NCBI RefSeq assembly: GCF_002159945.1
Contig: NZ_NFJQ01000004.1
Location: 62,001 to 126,000, forward strand
DNA: 64,000 nt
Source: Cloacibacillus sp. An23
Lineage (GTDB): Bacteria; Synergistota; Synergistia; Synergistales; Synergistaceae
Reading direction: 5' to 3'
A program made the position numbers and the translations under genes. Every line of letters begins with the position of its first letter. Within the stretch, counting starts at the first letter, position 1. Below, piece after piece: positions 46,754 through 55,348 of this stretch. Under the pieces are notes generated by a model, which made no database searches, had not been told where the DNA came from, and saw only the letters and a list, made by a program, of their open reading frames with translations.

Positions 46754-47920
46754 CTACTTCCAGTTGTCGTATATCCACTGCGCCGCGCGGCGCGCCTCGT
46801 TGAACTCCCCGGCTTCTCCGCCGCCGCGGCTTCCGCCGTCGCGTCTGAGCCGGAGCCAGTCGCCGTACTCCACGAGGACGCCGCCGTGCGCGAAGTGGTC
46901 GAAGACGAGGTCGAACTTCGGTATGCCCCAGAGCATGTCCGGGCGTATCGCGCCGGCGCCGACCAGCGCGGATGTGGCACGCTGCAAAAAGCTCTTTATC
47001 CCCTTTTTATGTCCGACGCGGAGGAGCACGGCGCGGTGCCCGCCCGTTATCGTCTCTGACACCATATTGACGGAGTCCTCGGTGCAGAATACTTCCGTAG
47101 AGAATCCGAGCATCGCGGGGATGGGGTTGAAGGCGTCCTCCGACGCTATCAGCAGATATTTGACGCAGGGCGAGTGCGAGGCGAGCGTCTTTACCATTTT
47201 CGACGCCGCGTCGCTCGTGCGGCGCGAGGTCGTTATGAAGACGTCGGCCCCGGCGTGCTGCGCAAGGTTAAGTATCTGTCCGATCTGCTTTTTCACCCAT
47301 TCGGCGCTTATCTCGTAGTTAGCGTCGTCGCCGCCTATCAGCACAGACCATCTTTCCGGCGCGTCGGACGGATGGGCCGCGAGCAGCTCCTCCGCCTCTT
47401 TTTTGAGATTTTCTTTTATGACGTTGTTCGGCGAGCCGAGAGTGACGAAAACGTTCGGCTTGCGCTCGGGGTAGTCGTGTTCCGGCACTATCGCGAAGTC
47501 GAAGGGCTCGGTGCCGAGGACGCTCGGCGTCATTATCGTCGCGCAGGCGCAGCGCCAGATGTAGCCGAGCGCTATGTTATAGGGAGCTGGCGCGCTTCCG
47601 GCGGAGAGTATCAGAGCCGTGCCGGAGCCCTCCTGCACGCCGCGCTCTGCGAACCATTGTCCCACGCGGCGTATCAGCTGCTCGCCTCCGTTAGCGGAGA
47701 GCCAGTCGCGCGCGTCGCGCCTCGTGCCGCCGAGCAAGGCCTTCGACGACGATTTCGCGCGCGCTTTAGCCGCCCCCGTCAGGACAGGGACTTCGGCTTC
47801 AAGGACTTCGGCGCCGGTGAGCTTCGAGAGCCAATAGGCTACGCCGCGGCTCTGGTTGACGTGTCCGCGGATGCCTTCGCTGAGTATGACGATCACCTTG
47901 AGCGCGTCGCCGGGCTTCAT
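46754..47920 (-). CDS. ELM1-family (DUF1022) glycosyltransferase-like protein
   Basis: A 388-residue protein of the mitochondrial fission ELM1 family, a GT-B-like fold of unproven activity found in plants and bacteria. Visible: VIVILSEGIRGHVNQSRGVA at the N-terminus, ALILSAGSAPAPYNIALGY, VLIGGDDANYEISAEWVKKQ and VFITTSRRTSDAASKMV, then FCTEDSVNMVSETITGGHRA. It closes the lipid A-Kdo operon and overlaps kdsB by 4 bp (ATGA), which suggests a role in core or inner-membrane glycolipid assembly (inference). Confidence 0.82.
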   Translation of the reverse strand: MKPGDALKVIVILSEGIRGHVNQSRGVAYWLSKLTGAEVLEAEVPVLTGAAKARAKSSSKALLGGTRRDARDWLSANGGEQLIRRVGQWFAERGVQEGSGTALILSAGSAPAPYNIALGYIWRCACATIMTPSVLGTEPFDFAIVPEHDYPERKPNVFVTLGSPNNVIKENLKKEAEELLAAHPSDAPERWSVLIGGDDANYEISAEWVKKQIGQILNLAQHAGADVFITTSRRTSDAASKMVKTLASHSPCVKYLLIASEDAFNPIPAMLGFSTEVFCTEDSVNMVSETITGGHRAVLLRVGHKKGIKSFLQRATSALVGAGAIRPDMLWGIPKFDLVFDHFAHGGVLVEYGDWLRLRRDGGSRGGGEAGEFNEARRAAQWIYDNWK

Positions 47921-48672
47921 TTTTCTTCGTTCTTCCTCTGCGCGAATATCCTGCGCGCTTCTTCAAGGTCTTCGAGCGTGTTTACGTTCGGCCCTTCCGA
48001 CGGATATTTCGTCGGGATTACCGCCATCGAGTAGCCGTGTTCGAGGATGCGGAGCTGTTCGAGGCTCTCCGTCTGCATCAGCGGCGTCGGCGGCAGCGCG
48101 ACGAATTTGAGCAGAAATTCTTTCGTGAAGGCGTATATGCCGAGGTGTTCCCACACAGGGCAGCCGGCCGAATTTCTCGGATACGGTATCGGCGAGCGGC
48201 TGAAGTAGAGCGCGCGCCCGTTCTGCGCGCGGACTACCTTGACGATGTTCGGATTGCGGAAATCCTCTTCGTTCGTTATCGGCACGCAGACCGTCGCCGA
48301 GTCCGCGTCCGGGTCGGCTATGAGGCCGTGCGCTAGCTCGCCGAGCATTCGCGGGTCGAGCATAGGCTCGTCTCCCTGTATGTTGATTACGTAGTCCGTG
48401 TCGATTTTCGCGGCTATCTCGGCCGCGCGGCTCGAGCCGTCTGGATGGTCCGCGCGCGTCATGGCGACGTCGCCGCCGAATTTTTCCGCGGCGTCGTATA
48501 TCCTGTGGTCGTCGGTCGCGATTATGACGCGGAAGAAGACGCCGGACGCGCATGCGCGGCGGTAGACGTGTTCGAGCATCGTCTTGCCGCCTATTTCGAG
48601 AAGCGGCTTTCCGGGAAGGCGCGACGACGCGTAGCGCGCGGGGATGACTCCGAGTATTTTAGGCTGGGTCAT
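47917..48672 (-). CDS. kdsB: 3-deoxy-manno-octulosonate cytidylyltransferase (CMP-Kdo synthetase)
   Basis: Activates Kdo as CMP-Kdo for transfer to lipid A by WaaA. The 251-residue nucleotidyltransferase shows ILGVIPARYASSRLPGKPLL, MLEHVYRRACASG, VIIATDDHRIYDAAEKFGG, DYVINIQGDEPMLDP, LYFSRSPIPYPR and the late QTESLEQLRILEHGYSMAV. One base separates it from the upstream unknown gene, and it overlaps the ELM1-like gene. Confidence 0.97.
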   Translation of the reverse strand: MTQPKILGVIPARYASSRLPGKPLLEIGGKTMLEHVYRRACASGVFFRVIIATDDHRIYDAAEKFGGDVAMTRADHPDGSSRAAEIAAKIDTDYVINIQGDEPMLDPRMLGELAHGLIADPDADSATVCVPITNEEDFRNPNIVKVVRAQNGRALYFSRSPIPYPRNSAGCPVWEHLGIYAFTKEFLLKFVALPPTPLMQTESLEQLRILEHGYSMAVIPTKYPSEGPNVNTLEDLEEARRIFAQRKNEEK

Positions 48673-48673
48673 C

Positions 48674-49885
48674 TTAGCGCGCGGCTTTCCATTCGCGGAA
48701 CTTCCGCAGCATCTTGTCGCGGTCGAGCGGGCGGACGTTTTTCACTATCCACTCGCGCATCGCTTTGCCGTCCTCCGTCTCCTGCTTGTAGCTCATGAAG
48801 GAGAGCTCTATGCCGAGGGCGTCCGCTATGCGCAGAGCGAAGACGGGCCATATCATGCCGATGTCTCCGATGACCGGCAGGCTCCCTTCGTGGCGCGCGA
48901 AGGCGGACATTTCCATGCGGAACGGGATTTTCGAGATTTTCGTCTTGGGCAGCCCCTTGTCGATGGCCTCCTGTATCATCGCGCTCGACTTCTGGAGGTC
49001 CTGCGCACGGCGCAGGTTCTCGTCGAGGTCGAAGCGGACGAGCGTCTTGTTTTTCAGGCTGTATACGCGCTGTCCCTGCCACCACGACCAGATGCCGTGG
49101 CCGGTGTATGTCTCGAACGGGCCGTCGTGTATCTCCTGCGTGAGCGCGACCGCAGACTCGATTATCACGTCGGCGGAGCCGAGCATGTCCGCGATGCGGC
49201 GTGAGCGCTCCGCTACCGGGATACTGTCGCCGACGGAGAGGCCGATGTGTCCGCCGCCGACCATCTGCGGTATTGTGACGAGCACGGGGACGCCGCGCTC
49301 CGCGCCGGCGCCGAGCATCGTGCGCGGGTCGCAGCCCCAGCCGGCGACGGTCTCGAAGGGCAGGCCGCACTGGCGGCAGAGCGAGAGTATCTCCTCCGCG
49401 AGCTTCTCCGTGCGAAGCCCCATCGGGTAGGCCATGTTCGCCGCGGCCTTGATGACCATGTGCCCCTCCGCGTCGTGACGCTTGGCGAGCAGTTCGCGGT
49501 CGAGTATCATTTCTTTTGAAAGTTCGCCGAGCTCTTCGTCGCTCATATCGGTGAACTCAAAGACGTTGCCGCGCGGCATTTTCTCCTCGTCCATGCCGAG
49601 CTGCGCCGCGCCGCACATCTTGACGCGGTCAAGCGCGCCGCCCATCTCATGGTTTACGACGGCGGAGCTGGTCGTTACGCCGTCGACGACGCCCTTGCTT
49701 ATAAGTTCGGCTATCAGCGTCGTCACGCCCTCGTGGAGGTTCGGGCCGCTGCCCGTGACCACCGCAACTTTGCCGCCTCTTCTCTTGGCTTCGACGACTT
49801 TCTCCACCGCCGCGTCGAGAGCCTCGCGCGAACGTTCGTCAAGTCCGTTGTAAAACTCTTCTATAAGTCCGCGGTTTATCGTCAT
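48674..49885 (-). CDS. Unrecognised conserved-looking protein in the Kdo operon
   Basis: A 403-residue soluble protein I cannot assign. It starts MTINRGLIEEFYNGLDERSR and contains glycine-rich and polar motifs that look like a nucleotide or sugar-phosphate site: VAVVTGSGPNLHEGVTTLIA, VVDGVTTSSAVVNHEMGGAL, ETVAGWGCDPRTMLGAGAER and ETYTGHGIWSWWQGQRVYSL. The VVDGVTTSSA region distantly recalls deoxyhypusine-synthase-like Rossmann folds, but I would not name it so. ATG 49885 follows GGAGGAG at 5 bases. It is embedded between waaA (20 bp upstream) and kdsB (1 bp), so it is likely involved in Kdo or core processing. Confidence 0.8.
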   Translation of the reverse strand: MTINRGLIEEFYNGLDERSREALDAAVEKVVEAKRRGGKVAVVTGSGPNLHEGVTTLIAELISKGVVDGVTTSSAVVNHEMGGALDRVKMCGAAQLGMDEEKMPRGNVFEFTDMSDEELGELSKEMILDRELLAKRHDAEGHMVIKAAANMAYPMGLRTEKLAEEILSLCRQCGLPFETVAGWGCDPRTMLGAGAERGVPVLVTIPQMVGGGHIGLSVGDSIPVAERSRRIADMLGSADVIIESAVALTQEIHDGPFETYTGHGIWSWWQGQRVYSLKNKTLVRFDLDENLRRAQDLQKSSAMIQEAIDKGLPKTKISKIPFRMEMSAFARHEGSLPVIGDIGMIWPVFALRIADALGIELSFMSYKQETEDGKAMREWIVKNVRPLDRDKMLRKFREWKAAR

Positions 49886-49905: not shown

Positions 49906-51174
49906 TCAGAGATATTTTTTTATGATTTCCCACGTGCGCGCCGAAGCGCCGCGCGATTTGTCAAAGTATTCGCGGCTCAGCGCGAGCCATTTTTCGCGCC
50001 CGCCGTCCCCTTCGCCGGCGATTTCGAGCCAGACGCGCGCGAGGCCGCGCTCGTCCGCCACCTGCGAGGCCGCGCCCATAGCCAGAAAGGCGCGCGACGC
50101 CTGCGCGAAATCCTCCATGTGCGGCCCGTACTGGACGGGCACCCCCCACGAGAAAGGCTCCAGGATGTTCTGCCCGCCTTTGTCGGCGAAGCTGCCGCCG
50201 ACGAACGCGGCGCGCGCCGTGCCGTACAGGTCGAACAGCACGCCTATGCGGTCTATTATCAGCACATCCCAACCGGCGGTCAAGTTTGAGAACATCGCGA
50301 GCTTCAACTCCGGCGGCACGAGCGACGCCACGGCCGCGGCGCGTTCGGGATGGCGCGGCGCTATGACAAGGCGCGCCTCGGGATGATCCTTCCGCAGTTC
50401 CGCGAAGGCGGCTATGACTTTTTCGTCCTCGCCGGTGTGCGTGCTCCCCGCGACGAATACTGGGCGCTCCGGCTCGCCAAGCTCTTCCGCGAGCCTGTCG
50501 CGCGCGGCTTCGTTTCTGCGCGCGAGCAGCGCGTCTACCTTGCCGTCGCCCATGACGAAAAGCTTTTCCTTCTCGACGCCGATGCGCGAAAGGCGTTCTC
50601 GGTCTTCTTCGTCGCGCAGGAAGAGCGAGGTAAAGAGCGAGTATGCGCCGCGAGCGAGCGGGCGTTTCACGCCGCCCTGCACACGCCCCCACGTCCTGTC
50701 CGATATGCGGCCGTTTATGAGGAACGCCGGAATACTGCGGCCGCGGCACTCCCACAGCATATTGGGCCACAGCTCCGTCTCCGCGGCCGCGAAGGCCGCG
50801 GGGCGCAGCGCGTCGAGCGCGCGAGAGACGAAGAGCCGCTTATCCCACGGATAGTAGACATGTACATCGTACAGCCCCCCGCCGAGCCGCTCCGCCATAG
50901 CCTTGCCGGTCTGAGTCGTCGTCGAGATGACGAAGGGGCCGTCCCATCCGTCCTCGCGCGCGGCTTTGATGAAAGGCACGGCGGCCTGCACCTCGCCGAC
51001 CGATACCGCGTGGACCCACACGGGGCGGCGGCCGCGCAGCGCGGCGAGCTTCTCCTCCGGGATGAGCCCCTGACGCTCGTCGTTGCCCTCGGTGTATTTC
51101 GCCTTGAGCTTTTTATGCGAGAGCGCGAAGAATATATCTATCGCGGCTCCGTAGACGCTCCGCAGCAGGGACAG
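49906..51174 (-). CDS. waaA: 3-deoxy-D-manno-octulosonic acid transferase (Kdo transferase), non-standard start
   Basis: Transfers Kdo from CMP-Kdo to lipid A precursor at the inner membrane. Family motifs are PVWVHAVSVGEVQAA, VISTTTQTGKAMAERL, FAAAETELWPNMLWEC, AFLINGRISDRTWGR, VFVAGSTHTGEDEKVIAAF, IAPRHPERAAAV and AAFVGGSFADKGGQNILEP. The N-terminal anchor (LRSVYGAAIDIFFALSHKKL) lies upstream of any ATG, GTG or TTG: the first such codon is GTG 51021, after residue 51. The frame begins with CTG directly after, and in frame with, the kdsD stop, with GGGGGTGG just upstream. I take CTG 51174 as the probable start, giving 422 residues, the usual length. Confidence 0.85.
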   Translation of the reverse strand: MSLLRSVYGAAIDIFFALSHKKLKAKYTEGNDERQGLIPEEKLAALRGRRPVWVHAVSVGEVQAAVPFIKAAREDGWDGPFVISTTTQTGKAMAERLGGGLYDVHVYYPWDKRLFVSRALDALRPAAFAAAETELWPNMLWECRGRSIPAFLINGRISDRTWGRVQGGVKRPLARGAYSLFTSLFLRDEEDRERLSRIGVEKEKLFVMGDGKVDALLARRNEAARDRLAEELGEPERPVFVAGSTHTGEDEKVIAAFAELRKDHPEARLVIAPRHPERAAAVASLVPPELKLAMFSNLTAGWDVLIIDRIGVLFDLYGTARAAFVGGSFADKGGQNILEPFSWGVPVQYGPHMEDFAQASRAFLAMGAASQVADERGLARVWLEIAGEGDGGREKWLALSREYFDKSRGASARTWEIIKKYL

Positions 51175-52182
51175 CTACGCCACCCCCGCCTTGAGTATCT
51201 CGTGGATGTGTACCATGCCGACGGGACGGTTGTCTTTATCAACGACGATGAGGGCCGAGACCTCCCACTGCTCGACGATGCGCACCGCTTCGACAGCGAG
51301 GCTGTCGGGAGATATCACGCGCGGGTGGGTCGTCATAGCCTCGGAGACCGGATGTTCCAGCCCTTCTACGCCGTTTTTCTCAATGAAGCGGCGCAGGTCT
51401 CCGTCTGTGAAGACGCCGACGAGTTCTCCGCCGTCGCCGACGATGGCCGTCGCGCCGTAGCCCTTGCTCGTGATATCGAATATCGCGTCGCGGACGCGCG
51501 CGTGGACGTTCGTGAGCGGCAGCTTGTCGCCGCTGCCCATGAGGTCGCGCACGCGGAGCAGCAGGCGCTTGCCGAGCGAGCCGCCCGGATGGAAGAGAGC
51601 GAAGTCTTCCTTCTGGAGGCCGAGCAGCAGCGTCGCCATGCCCGCGACTGCGTCGCCTATCGCCATCTGGAGCGTCGTGCTGCTCGTCGGGGCGAGGCCG
51701 AGCGGGTCGGCCTCGGCATCGACGTGGCTGTTGAGCACCACGTCCGCCTCGCGTGCGAGCGACGACTCGGGATTGCCGGTGACGGCGATTATCGGCGCGC
51801 CGATCCTTTTGAAATAAGGGATGATGTCTATGAGTTCGTGAGTCTCGCCGCTGTTGCTGAGGAAGTAGCCTACGTCCTCGCGGCAGACCATGCCGAGGTC
51901 GCCGTGCGCGCCTTCGGTCGCGTGCAGGAAGAAGGCCGGGACTCCGAGCGACGCGAAGGTCGCGGCGCTCTTGCGCCCGACGTGCCCCGATTTGCCGAGC
52001 CCGGTCACGACTACGCGCCCTCCGCAGCGGCTGACTAAGTGCGCAGCCTTGACTATCTCGTCGCCGAGACGCCCCGCCGCGGCCTCGAGCGACGCGGCCT
52101 CCTTGCGCAGTATCTCGCGCCCGGTCTTTATCAGCTCTTCGTTGGAAATTTTCTTCTCTTCGCGTTCGTATGGAAGATTCAT
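51175..52182 (-). CDS. kdsD: Arabinose-5-phosphate isomerase (KdsD/KpsF)
   Basis: Converts ribulose-5-phosphate to arabinose-5-phosphate, the Kdo precursor. The 335-residue protein has an N-terminal SIS domain (RVVVTGLGKSGHVGRKSAAT, FFLHATEGAHGDLGMV, YFLSNSGETHELIDIIPY, and TSSTTLQMAIGDAVAGMATL) and a pair of CBS domains (about 210-330; TAIVGDGGELVGVFTDGDLR and ALIVVDKDNRPVGMVHIHEI). It is 3 bp after kdsA. Its TAG stop is in the same frame as waaA. Confidence 0.96.
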   Translation of the reverse strand: MNLPYEREEKKISNEELIKTGREILRKEAASLEAAAGRLGDEIVKAAHLVSRCGGRVVVTGLGKSGHVGRKSAATFASLGVPAFFLHATEGAHGDLGMVCREDVGYFLSNSGETHELIDIIPYFKRIGAPIIAVTGNPESSLAREADVVLNSHVDAEADPLGLAPTSSTTLQMAIGDAVAGMATLLLGLQKEDFALFHPGGSLGKRLLLRVRDLMGSGDKLPLTNVHARVRDAIFDITSKGYGATAIVGDGGELVGVFTDGDLRRFIEKNGVEGLEHPVSEAMTTHPRVISPDSLAVEAVRIVEQWEVSALIVVDKDNRPVGMVHIHEILKAGVA

Positions 52183-52185
52183 CGG

Positions 52186-53061
52186 CTATTCCTCCGCCCA
52201 GTCGAGCCGCGAGAAGCCTAGCTCCCCGCGCGCTGTTTTGTCTATTTCGTATGTCTGGCGCAGAACTTCGCGCACTTTGGCGAGCGGTATCGAGTTCGGC
52301 CCGTCGCACTTGGCGCGGTCCGGCTCCGGATGTACCTCCATGAACAGCGCGTCGATGCCTATCGCAGCCGCCGCGCGTATCAGCGGCAGGACGAACGAAC
52401 GGTCGCCTCCGCTGCACGTCCCTTTGCCTCCGGGCTTCTGCACGCTGTGCGTCGCGTCGAACATGACGGGGACGCCGAGCGAGCGCATGACCGGCAGCGA
52501 GCGGAAGTCCACCGAAAGCTCATGATAGCCGAACTCCGTGCCGCGCTCGCAGAGTATCACGTCCTCGCAGCCGCTCTCGCGGCATTTGCCGAGCACCGAG
52601 GCCATGTCCTCGGGGGCCATGAACTGCGCCTTCTTCACATTGAGCGGCTTCCCCGTGCGGCTCGCCGCCGCGAGCAGGTCCGTCTGGCGGCAGAGGAAGG
52701 CCGGTATCTGGATGAGATCGACGTGCTTCGCGGCGGCCTCGGCCTGCCACGGCTCGTGAACGTCCGTGACGACGGGGACTCCGGCCTCGCGCCCTATCGC
52801 GGAGAGCCACTCGAGCCCCTTCTCTATGCCGGGGCCGCGGTAGCTCTTTATCGAAGTCCGGTTCGCCTTGTCGAAGGAAGCCTTGAATATATAGCCGAAG
52901 CCGAATTCGGCGCAGTATTCCTTCATCGTCTTCGCGATCATGAGCGCCTCTTCGTAGGTGTCGAGCACGCACGGACCAGCGGCGACGGCAAGCGTTCCAC
53001 CTCCGACGGAGACGTTTCCAACCTTAACAACTCTTACGCTATTTGAGTCGGACACCTTCAT
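52186..53061 (-). CDS. kdsA: 3-deoxy-8-phosphooctulonate synthase (Kdo-8-P synthase)
   Basis: Condenses arabinose-5-phosphate and phosphoenolpyruvate to Kdo-8-phosphate. About 291 residues with the DAHP-like barrel: LAVAAGPCVLDTYEEALMIA, YIFKASFDKANRTSIKSYRG, PVVTDVHEPWQAEAAAKHVD, IQIPAFLCRQTDLLAAA, VKKAQFMAPEDM, and DATHSVQKPGGKGTCSGGD. I give ATG 53061; its ribosome binding site is close (AAGGAG, 3 bases), so GTG 53055 is also possible. The 5' end overlaps the upstream gene's stop by 23 bp. Confidence 0.95.
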   Translation of the reverse strand: MKVSDSNSVRVVKVGNVSVGGGTLAVAAGPCVLDTYEEALMIAKTMKEYCAEFGFGYIFKASFDKANRTSIKSYRGPGIEKGLEWLSAIGREAGVPVVTDVHEPWQAEAAAKHVDLIQIPAFLCRQTDLLAAASRTGKPLNVKKAQFMAPEDMASVLGKCRESGCEDVILCERGTEFGYHELSVDFRSLPVMRSLGVPVMFDATHSVQKPGGKGTCSGGDRSFVLPLIRAAAAIGIDALFMEVHPEPDRAKCDGPNSIPLAKVREVLRQTYEIDKTARGELGFSRLDWAEE

Positions 53062-55348
53062 CAGCTCCTTCGCCTTTCGTTTCTTTTTCTCCGAGTGAAT
53101 CGAGATATTTCTTATATTTTTCATAGACGCTGCAGCGGGCGTCCCAGCCCAGCTCCGCCGCGCAGTATTCCACGACGTTGTCGAGCGCGCCCATGCGCCC
53201 GAGGTTCTTTATCCCGGCCTCCTGCATCGAGCGGCGCAGCTCCGGGTCGGTGAGTATGCGCTCCGCGGCCGCCGCGAGCTCCGCCGGTTCAGCGGGCACG
53301 AGTACCTCCGCGTCGCGCAGCAGCTTTTTCTGGCGCAGCTTGCCGCGCTCTATTATCGAGACGACCGGCACGCCGAGCCCGGCGCAGAGCTGATTCGCAG
53401 TACCGCCGAGCCCTATCAGCAGCTCCGCGCCGTAGGCCGCCGCCGCGACCGGCGCGCGGCATATCGCGACCGACGCCGCGACCGACGAAAGTGTGAGGCC
53501 GTCTTCCGACAGCTTCCAGCCGTCAAGGCTTTCCGTCATTTTCTTCAAATCTATCGTCGGCGCGGGCACCATGACGAAGCAGCACTCCATACGGGAGGCG
53601 AGCAGCGTCACTGTGTCGAGCACGAGTTTTATGTCTTCATAGGCGCGCGGGCGGCTGCCGGGCAGCAGCAGTATCTTGAAGCCCTCGCCGTTCCACGCGA
53701 AGGCCGGCTCGTTCGTCTCGTCGAGAAGGTCCATTATCGGATTGCCCTGAAAGACGGCCGGCACGCCGGCGGCGACGAGCTCGCGCGCCGTCTCCTCGTC
53801 GCGCGTCCAGACGAGGATGCAGCGGCGGCGCATGAGCCATTTCTCGATGCGCATGTGGCCGTTAAGGTGGACGGACTTCGCAGTAGCGACGAAGAGCGGC
53901 TTCATGCCCTGCCCCCACAGCACGCTGAGAAGCAGGTAGACGTCGCCGACGCATATAGGAGTGCGGTATTTGCCGTAGAGCTCGCGCATCTTCTTCATCT
54001 GGCGGCGTATCGCGCCGCCGAGCCCGTGGCGCACGTCGCTCACGAGGTCGCGCAGGTGGTACTTCACGACGCCGCCGCTCGGCATCTCCGCCGGCGGCGA
54101 AACGACGTTTATTCCGTTCATCGTGTAAGGCTTGCCCGAGCCGACGAGAGCGAAGGCGTCCACTCTCGCGCTCGGAAAGCGAGCCTTGAGCTTCTTCGCA
54201 AGCACGACACCCATCGCATCCTCGCCGTTGCCGTTCGAGGCGACGAGAAACGCCGGGCGCAGCTTTTCGAGAATTTTCCTGCGGAAGCCGAGCGGGTCGC
54301 GCAGCGAGACCTTTATGCACGGGACGTAAAGCGGAAGGTTCAGGCTCAGCTTCCTCGGCATGTTCGCGAGGTCCTTCTCCGTGCATACGAAGCCGTCCGC
54401 GCCGGTCGCTGCGGCGAGGCGTTCGAGCTCCGCTATCTCGTTTTCCGTGAGTATGTGGTGGTCGCGGTAGGTGCGGCGCTCGGCCACGGCGACGCCGAGC
54501 TCGTCGAGGAACTGATAGAAGCCGCCGGGATTGCCTATCGCGGATAACGCGATATATTTTCCGCGCGGGACGAAGCCCTCTTCATCGACGGCGTGCTCGC
54601 AGCCGCCGGCCTCGCGCGCCATCCACGACTCGAGTTTTATGTCCGCGACGAATATCTTGTCCTCCGTCACGTACGGCGAGATTTTTTCCTTGATTTCGTC
54701 TATCGCCTCGGGACGCGCCTGGTTCGCCTTCGTCAGCACGATTATGTCGGCGCGGCGGAATGCCGACATCGGCTCGCGCATCGACCCGGCCGGCAGCACC
54801 TGTCCGTTGCCGAACGGGCAGGTCGAGTCCACGAGCACGATGTCCACGTCGCGCCCCATCTTCCTGTGCTGAAAGGTGTCGTCCGTAACGGCGACCTCCG
54901 CGCCGAGCGAAGCGAGCAGCTTCACGCCCTCGATGCGCTTGCGCGAGACGACGACCTTCGCGTCGGGCAGACGGCGCGAGAGCATCAGAGGCTCGTCGCC
55001 CGCGAAATCGCGGCGCGTGCTTTTTTTATCCTGTCCTATCCATAGCGGCGGATGTTCCTTCGTCCTGTAGCCGCGGCTCACGAGGCCGGCCTTGATGCCG
55101 GCTTCGGCGAACTGGCGCACGACGTACTCAGCCATCGGAGTCTTGTTGGTGCCGCCGAAGCAGTTGTTGCCGATGCTCACGACGGGAAGCACCGGGTCGG
55201 CGACGGAGAATATCCCGCGCTTGTAAAAGCCTATGCGCAGCCTCATCCAGGCGCGCGTGACGAACTGGCAGGGCCAGAGGAAGCCCCACAGAGGTGAGCC
55301 GCCCTCGCCGCGCGCGTATTTAAGGTAGCTGCGAAGCAACTTAGACAT
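53039..55348 (-). CDS. lpxK: Fusion of LpxK (tetraacyldisaccharide 4'-kinase) and an LpxB-like GT-B domain
   Basis: A 769-residue two-domain protein. Residues 1-362 match LpxK, which phosphorylates the lipid A disaccharide: PVVSIGNNCFGGTNKTPMAE (P-loop), GLVSRGYRTK, FAGDEPLML, AVTDDTFQHRKMGRDVDIVL, LPAGSMREP, and the late YRDHHIL and DGFVCTEKD. The P-loop Gly before Lys is Asn (residue 68), and the usual DDG is DDT (158). Residues 366-745 match lipid-A-disaccharide-synthase-related proteins: VASNGNGEDAMGVVLAKKL, CVGDVYLLL, LLLPGSRPRAYEDIKLV and IGLGGTANQLCAGLGVPVVS. A true lpxB is also in the operon. The second domain may add a sugar to lipid A or the core (inference). Confidence 0.88.
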   Translation of the reverse strand: MSKLLRSYLKYARGEGGSPLWGFLWPCQFVTRAWMRLRIGFYKRGIFSVADPVLPVVSIGNNCFGGTNKTPMAEYVVRQFAEAGIKAGLVSRGYRTKEHPPLWIGQDKKSTRRDFAGDEPLMLSRRLPDAKVVVSRKRIEGVKLLASLGAEVAVTDDTFQHRKMGRDVDIVLVDSTCPFGNGQVLPAGSMREPMSAFRRADIIVLTKANQARPEAIDEIKEKISPYVTEDKIFVADIKLESWMAREAGGCEHAVDEEGFVPRGKYIALSAIGNPGGFYQFLDELGVAVAERRTYRDHHILTENEIAELERLAAATGADGFVCTEKDLANMPRKLSLNLPLYVPCIKVSLRDPLGFRRKILEKLRPAFLVASNGNGEDAMGVVLAKKLKARFPSARVDAFALVGSGKPYTMNGINVVSPPAEMPSGGVVKYHLRDLVSDVRHGLGGAIRRQMKKMRELYGKYRTPICVGDVYLLLSVLWGQGMKPLFVATAKSVHLNGHMRIEKWLMRRRCILVWTRDEETARELVAAGVPAVFQGNPIMDLLDETNEPAFAWNGEGFKILLLPGSRPRAYEDIKLVLDTVTLLASRMECCFVMVPAPTIDLKKMTESLDGWKLSEDGLTLSSVAASVAICRAPVAAAAYGAELLIGLGGTANQLCAGLGVPVVSIIERGKLRQKKLLRDAEVLVPAEPAELAAAAERILTDPELRRSMQEAGIKNLGRMGALDNVVEYCAAELGWDARCSVYEKYKKYLDSLGEKETKGEGADEGVRLK

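Follow-up and report, generated by a model that had tools for sequence, protein, structure and literature searches.

A gene of the Synergistota Kdo operon predicted to encode a protein with the deoxyhypusine synthase/ornithine cyclodeaminase fold

A gene lying between waaA and kdsB in the Kdo operon of Cloacibacillus sp. An23, designated X here, most likely tailors Kdo, or supplies it, before KdsB acts, as judged from its gene context and its modelled structure. From its predicted fold, the product would be the first member of a family not yet described within the deoxyhypusine synthase/ornithine cyclodeaminase superfamily. In our preferred reading, to which we assign a probability of about 40%, X is an NAD(P)-binding enzyme that acts on free Kdo, in a redox-neutral manner, just before KdsB. 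The window analyzed was a stretch of 64,000 nt, and its relevant features are listed in Table 1.

Gene X and its relatives

The preliminary description of this DNA had placed an ORF of 403 residues at this site, 1 bp from kdsB and 20 bp from waaA, and had noted three glycine-rich motifs. The ORF was found exactly there, on the minus strand, and the coordinates of the neighbors gave the same spacings. All three motifs, GHGIWSWWQG among them, were present in the translation. On the plus strand, the reading frame was interrupted by stops.

We consider X a genuine gene rather than a chance ORF, because of its conserved relatives, its invariant columns and its presence in 92 of 185 Synergistota genomes (69 of 115 among the high-quality ones). 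One genome per species was scanned for relatives, and 290 were found. The best 80 of these 290 were retained; they were 63–88% identical to the X of the window and came from Synergistota, Bacteroidales, Acidaminococcaceae, Syntrophaceae and one Spirochaetales MAG. Alignment of 50 sequences gave more than 100 invariant columns. No relative was found in viral contigs.

The earlier view that X is not assignable to a known enzyme held, as X fell into no named Pfam or NCBIfam family. Pfam gave no match. NCBIfam gave only two weak matches, both N-terminal and far under the cut-off: NF052581 (GSU2086 family; 25 bits, cut-off 250) and TIGR00300 (ornithine cyclodeaminase; 20.6 bits, cut-off 410.8). X was the sole match to NF052581 in the An23 genome, again under the cut-off. 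Searches of the PDB sequences with X, with the X profile and with a divergent relative produced chance matches only.

Table 1. Positions of gene X, its conserved segments and the neighboring Kdo genes in the window
Feature	Position	Strand	Basis
Gene X	48674..49885	-	ATG at 49885; 403-aa ORF and translation, family alignment, predicted fold
X residues 44-56, codons of TGSGPNLHEGVTT	49718..49756	-	Glycine-rich loop after first strand; putative dinucleotide-binding loop
X residues 73-84, codons of SSAVVNHEMGGA	49634..49669	-	Aligned with GNALATHDLEGA of ornithine cyclodeaminase-like proteins
X residues 319-343, codons of KIPFRMEMSAFARHEGSLPVIGDIG	48857..48931	-	Most conserved C-terminal block
elm1-like gene (Mito_fiss_Elm1; putatively glycosyltransferase-like)	46754..47920	-	PF06258, 154.6 bits; conserved downstream of kdsB
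kdsB, canonical-type CMP-Kdo synthetase (H76, E102, Q206)	47917..48672	-	TIGR00466, 207.6 bits; motif, tree
waaA, Kdo transferase	49906..51021	-	PF04413; NF004388 matched from profile position 52
kdsD/kpsF, arabinose-5-phosphate isomerase	51175..52182	-	TIGR00393, 297.4 bits, over cut-off
kdsA, Kdo-8-phosphate synthase	52186..53124	-	TIGR01362, 357.3 bits, over cut-off

Predicted fold and cofactor

The structure of X was modeled on the 50-sequence alignment with a pLDDT of 88.4 and a pTM of 0.90. The best PDB matches of the model in Foldseek were the deoxyhypusine synthases (1dhs, E 8e-6, probability 1.00) and the LOR/SDH protein 3c2q. In VIA-align, the best match was the cyclodeaminase domain of ArgZ (Z 17.0, 210 residues, rmsd 2.9); the deoxyhypusine synthases scored a Z of about 16, and the superfamily matches overall had Z of 15–17. 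These fold alignments end at about residue 362, and the remainder of X lies outside. On the predicted model, X shares the fold of the deoxyhypusine synthase/ornithine cyclodeaminase-like superfamily. Such a fold makes an NAD-type enzyme likely, and the model suggests that X most likely binds NAD(P).

At the sequence level, the profile alignment of X with cyclodeaminase-like proteins of Synergistota covered only residues 17–87, the Rossmann half, and put H79-E80 opposite H-D. Alignment columns 44–57 of X were invariant or nearly so, and they fell opposite the Rossmann half of the ornithine cyclodeaminase-like proteins. The profile alignment of SSAVVNHEMGGA with GNALATHDLEGA had an E value of 0.0014 and a probability of only 17%. 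Both H79 and E80 were invariant columns, and columns 320–343 were mostly invariant. PF01916 scored 16.2 bits (E 0.0066) with a relative, under its gathering cut-off of 27. A literature search returned no paper linking deoxyhypusine synthase with Synergistetes or with octulosonic.

Linkage of X to kdsB and the Kdo operon

The order of the operon is lpxB, msbA, lpxK-TIGR03492 fusion, kdsA, kdsD, waaA, X, kdsB and elm1. The identities of waaA, kdsB, kdsD, kdsA, lpxK and lpxB were confirmed by Pfam/NCBIfam. The gene that we take to be msbA was named from its translation and its position. The product of lpxK (window 53039-55348) is a fusion protein of 769 aa, whose added domain is TIGR03492 (lipid-A-disaccharide synthase-related). 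As called, the N-terminus of WaaA starts about 50 profile positions late. Upstream of the first ATG/GTG/TTG, the waaA frame is open to the stop of kdsD (window 51021-51175), so that a start at a less common codon may be used.

The order lpxK-kdsA-kdsD-waaA-X-kdsB-elm1 recurred across Synergistaceae and further families. In nearly all the operons inspected from Synergistaceae and family f7, kdsB adjoined X; at loci L050/L131 and L129, waaA was beside X and kdsB was not. Outside Synergistota, where several X loci come from MAGs and are possibly misbinned, X adjoined kdsB at four Desulfobacterota loci, in a Spirochaetales MAG and in an Oscillospiraceae-named MAG. At four Acidaminococcaceae-type loci, X adjoined elm1 and glycosyltransferases instead of kdsB. 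The stop of X and the start of kdsB overlapped by 4 bases (ATGA) at 20 of 30 loci, one of which is a duplicate contig. Two loci, L041 (Phycisphaerales MAG) and L042 (Synergistales MAG), agreed in length, in coordinates and in contig number, and misbinning is likely.

In the trees, X of Syntrophaceae and KdsB of Syntrophaceae both nested within the Synergistaceae clade. This suggested a joint transfer of X and kdsB. More generally, X has probably moved between phyla, at times together with kdsB. The tie of X to Kdo genes, already stated in the preliminary description, was thus strengthened by the ATGA overlap, by the recurrence in Desulfobacterota and Spirochaetales MAGs, and by the apparent transfer of the pair.

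At two MAG loci, L081 (34-8363) and L071 (7020-11507), the X-kdsB pair had genes for a TRAP transporter and a DHDPS-type aldolase as neighbors. L081 further contained a PfkB kinase, an SIS isomerase and an RbsD mutarotase. This setting looks like a possible system by which a Kdo-like acid is taken up and cleaved. It favors free Kdo over Kdo-8-phosphate as what X acts on.

An envelope gene was present within two genes of X at 26/26 Synergistaceae-type, 4/4 Desulfobacterota, 6/7 Negativicutes and 2/2 other loci, but at only 4/20 g37-like and 2/20 Bacteroidales loci. Several lineages thus show a strong link between X and the Kdo genes, and others show none. These envelope neighbors in several phyla, together with the fold, would also suit an enzyme that adds an amine group to the envelope, like deoxyhypusine synthase moving its aminobutyl group. 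A polyamine or an amino acid would be the donor, and Kdo itself would stay unchanged. The closest and most mobile partner of X is, however, kdsB, whose product acts on free Kdo, and we regard this decoration as improbable.

The loci away from envelope genes are the ground for supposing that X is a general metabolic enzyme, for conversion of an amino acid or a sugar acid, placed in the Kdo operon for convenience of expression. There, X adjoined a formate/nitrite-type channel, amino acid binding proteins or an ECF-type component, as judged by eye. Against such a role stand the apparent co-transfer of X with kdsB and its repeated association, in four phyla or more, with kdsB, waaA, elm1 and msbA. 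We therefore hold a general metabolic function to be unlikely.

KdnA and the two types of KdsB

KdnA and KdnB reportedly belong to the 8-amino-Kdo pathway of Shewanella. A set of 18 Kdo regions without X was examined, of which seven were incomplete or otherwise arranged. In nine regions (L161-L165, L167-L169, L172), the Kdo synthesis genes were followed by an Fe-alcohol dehydrogenase and a DegT aminotransferase; in two, neither this pair nor kdsB was at that place. The aminotransferase scored 314.7 bits with the solved KdnA 5k8b, and the next protein 178.3. KdnA is reported to be the 8-amino-Kdo transaminase (PMC5125639). The dehydrogenase scored only 140.9 bits with the solved KdnB (5k8c), under many other Fe-dehydrogenases, and its role as the Kdo 8-oxidase is therefore putative.

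The distributions of X and KdnA were compared over 185 Synergistota genomes. X and KdnA were both present in 24, X only in 68, KdnA only in 67 and neither in 26 (Fisher p 3.6e-10, which ignores shared ancestry). By genus (n = 62), the corresponding numbers were 11, 15, 32 and 4, with a p of 1.7e-4 that likewise ignores shared ancestry. X and KdnA are complementary across Synergistota. On this genomic evidence, X shows both features taken to define a Kdo-tailoring gene, namely linkage to kdsB and complementarity to KdnA.

Where the KdnA region of an X-bearing genome was read, KdnA lay in a separate cassette of kdsB2, Fe-dehydrogenase and kdnA. The An23 genome itself carries both systems. Its stand-alone cassette, on contig C9 (L181:8137-11315), contains a second kdsB, an Fe-alcohol dehydrogenase and KdnA. 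This second kdsB is 41% identical to that of the window and is of the L/D/M type described below.

With the numbering of the window's KdsB, positions 76/102/206 were H/E/Q in 29/29 KdsB linked to X and L/D/M in 18/18 linked to KdnA. The solved E. coli KdsB chains have H/E/Q. Two g37 KdsB copies from X-bearing genomes had L/E/Q. By these residues, the X-linked KdsB is of the ordinary canonical kind, and this speaks against X making 8-amino-Kdo. E. coli KdsB takes 8-azido but not 7-azido Kdo (PMC12409901), and X may therefore make some other change to Kdo. From the KdnA systems, many Synergistota are predicted to make 8-amino-Kdo.

As a single protein, X might be the counterpart of the KdnB-KdnA pair. 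It would turn the C8 alcohol into an aldehyde with bound NAD+, take up an amine (ammonia or another), and reduce the imine with the same NADH to 8-amino-Kdo or an N-substituted form. X fills the slot after waaA that the Fe-alcohol dehydrogenase and KdnA hold in the nine operons without X, and the identification of that KdnA by 5k8b, the complementarity over the phylum and the C-N bond exchange by known enzymes of this superfamily all fit such a counterpart. The KdsB positions, changed in every KdnA-linked copy and canonical in every X-linked one, and the 24 genomes holding both systems speak against it, and we consider it distinctly unlikely. A straight substitution of X for KdnA/KdnB was the explanation first favored; it was weakened by An23 and 23 other genomes with both systems, and by the canonical KdsB pocket.

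KdsC

The preliminary description had offered X as a candidate replacement for KdsC, the HAD-family Kdo-8-phosphate phosphatase, to be checked by structure prediction with a fold search and by a phylogenetic profile. It correctly noted that no kdsC is present in the operon. A KdsC is nevertheless encoded elsewhere in the An23 genome (144.5 bits; TIGR01670 cut-off 106.95). Pfam and NCBIfam scans gave no TIGR01670 or HAD match for X, and the fold search returned a deoxyhypusine synthase-like fold rather than that of a phosphatase.

In the profile of 185 Synergistota genomes, X and a strong kdsC were both present in 45, X only in 47, kdsC only in 55 and neither in 38, showing no association (Fisher p 0.19). 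Genus g37 gave the pattern expected of a replacement, with a strong kdsC in 0/43 genomes and X in 36/43. Several genera had neither kdsC nor X, so X does not account for the loss of kdsC. With a kdsC in its own genome, no association over the phylum and a non-phosphatase fold, X as a replacement of KdsC was rejected, and we leave it hardly any probability. The modification of the core, which had been suggested as another role, does not stand in its broader form; it survives, unproven, when narrowed to tailoring of Kdo itself.

In genera g37 and g38, kdsC was over the cut-off in 0/47 genomes, though most have kdsA. Another Kdo-8-phosphate phosphatase is therefore probably used in these genera.

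Nickel-pincer cofactor

NCBIfam names TIGR00300 as nickel-pincer-dependent, and larC was examined for this reason. X could be a nickel-pincer nucleotide enzyme like the TIGR00300 ornithine cyclodeaminase, which it weakly matches. A full-length larC lay between kdsB and elm1 in 5/5 operons read from family f7 (L121, L122, L123, L128, L133). Both larB and larC are present in the An23 genome. In genus g37, larC and X are mostly present, with little or no strong LarA.

The wider distribution argued the other way. larC was present in 157/185 Synergistota genomes regardless of X, and at least 10 X-bearing Synergistota genomes showed no larC. Outside Synergistota, only 8/33 X-bearing genomes had larC, so that X and larC did not co-occur as a nickel-pincer enzyme would require. 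The ones without it included genomes with an X 80–84% identical to that of the window. With larC missing from 25 of these 33 genomes, this cofactor was largely rejected; nickel-pincer dependence as a trait of the X family is unlikely, and for X itself we hold it very improbable. A literature search found no paper linking the nickel-pincer nucleotide with ornithine cyclodeaminase.

Two side observations concern the lar genes. The larC of An23 (L124:9169-10035) is a LarC1-only ORF of 289 aa beside larB, with no LarC2 match, and is possibly frameshifted or split. In genus g37, larC was near-universal, strong LarA matches were rare, and no TIGR00300 match was listed.

Proposed role of X

In the preferred reading, X would have free Kdo as its substrate, and its step would follow that of the phosphatase KdsC and come immediately ahead of KdsB. 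X would oxidize one carbon of Kdo to a carbonyl or imine and re-reduce it with the same bound cofactor, as in the superfamily. There would be no net redox change, and Kdo would leave epimerized or with an oxygen swapped for nitrogen. KdsB, from the overlapping next gene, would then activate the product with CTP for WaaA. C8 is the end of Kdo where a canonical KdsB tolerates change. We infer the use of NAD, Kdo as the substrate and the order of these steps.

We counted in favor of the preferred reading the fold, the operon, the overlap of X with kdsB, the apparent co-transfer, the KdsB type that goes with each linkage, the complementarity to KdnA, the setting of L081/L071, and the acceptance of C8-modified but not C7-modified Kdo by E. 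coli KdsB. Counted against it were the likeness of the X-linked KdsB to that of E. coli, an ordinary enzyme that works without X; the KdnA also present in 24/92 X-bearing genomes; the position of X away from envelope genes at 16/20 g37-like and 18/20 Bacteroidales loci; and the weak sequence link to the superfamily, in the Rossmann half only.

A wider picture can be drawn, which we hold to be possible but doubtful. Synergistota and their gut neighbors would have two unrelated routes of Kdo tailoring: an Fe-alcohol dehydrogenase and KdnA with their own KdsB, and an NAD-cycling X with a canonical KdsB. The change made by X would be an epimerization or a hydrogen-borrowing amination, and X would be a portable LPS trait among gut anaerobes. 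We know of no precedent in LPS biosynthesis for a redox-neutral sugar change of this kind.

The inner core of LPS was long thought to be nearly invariant, and little is known of the LPS chemistry of rumen, gut and digester anaerobes. If the preferred reading is true, this layer would gain a new enzyme family through X, and perhaps a new sugar as well. A fold of protein modification and proline formation would be extended to cell-envelope sugars. Independently of X, KdnA and a KdsB type of its own occur widely among Synergistota, and 8-amino-Kdo should therefore be predictable from sequence well beyond Shewanella.

Comparison with known systems

Deoxyhypusine synthase (PF01916; PDB 1dhs, 7cmc) is like X in overall fold, with about 250–260 residues aligned at a Z of about 16. 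It differs in sequence, with 10–15% identity and no match over the cut-off, and X is bacterial and lies in a Kdo operon. The ornithine cyclodeaminase domain of ArgZ/AgrE and the TIGR00300 proteins (PDB 6juy, 6lrg, 3c2q) share with X the fold and the Rossmann half. TIGR00300-like proteins with stronger scores are encoded by separate genes in 26/185 Synergistota and are absent from the An23 genome.

KdsC (TIGR01670) would work in the part of the pathway proposed for X, but its gene is separately present in the An23 genome. KdnA, a DegT aminotransferase, and KdnB, an Fe-alcohol dehydrogenase, have no homology to X, and their partner KdsB is of a different type. The KdnB/KdnA pathway of Shewanella nevertheless resembles X in occupying the same place in the Kdo operon, with a distribution complementary to that of X.
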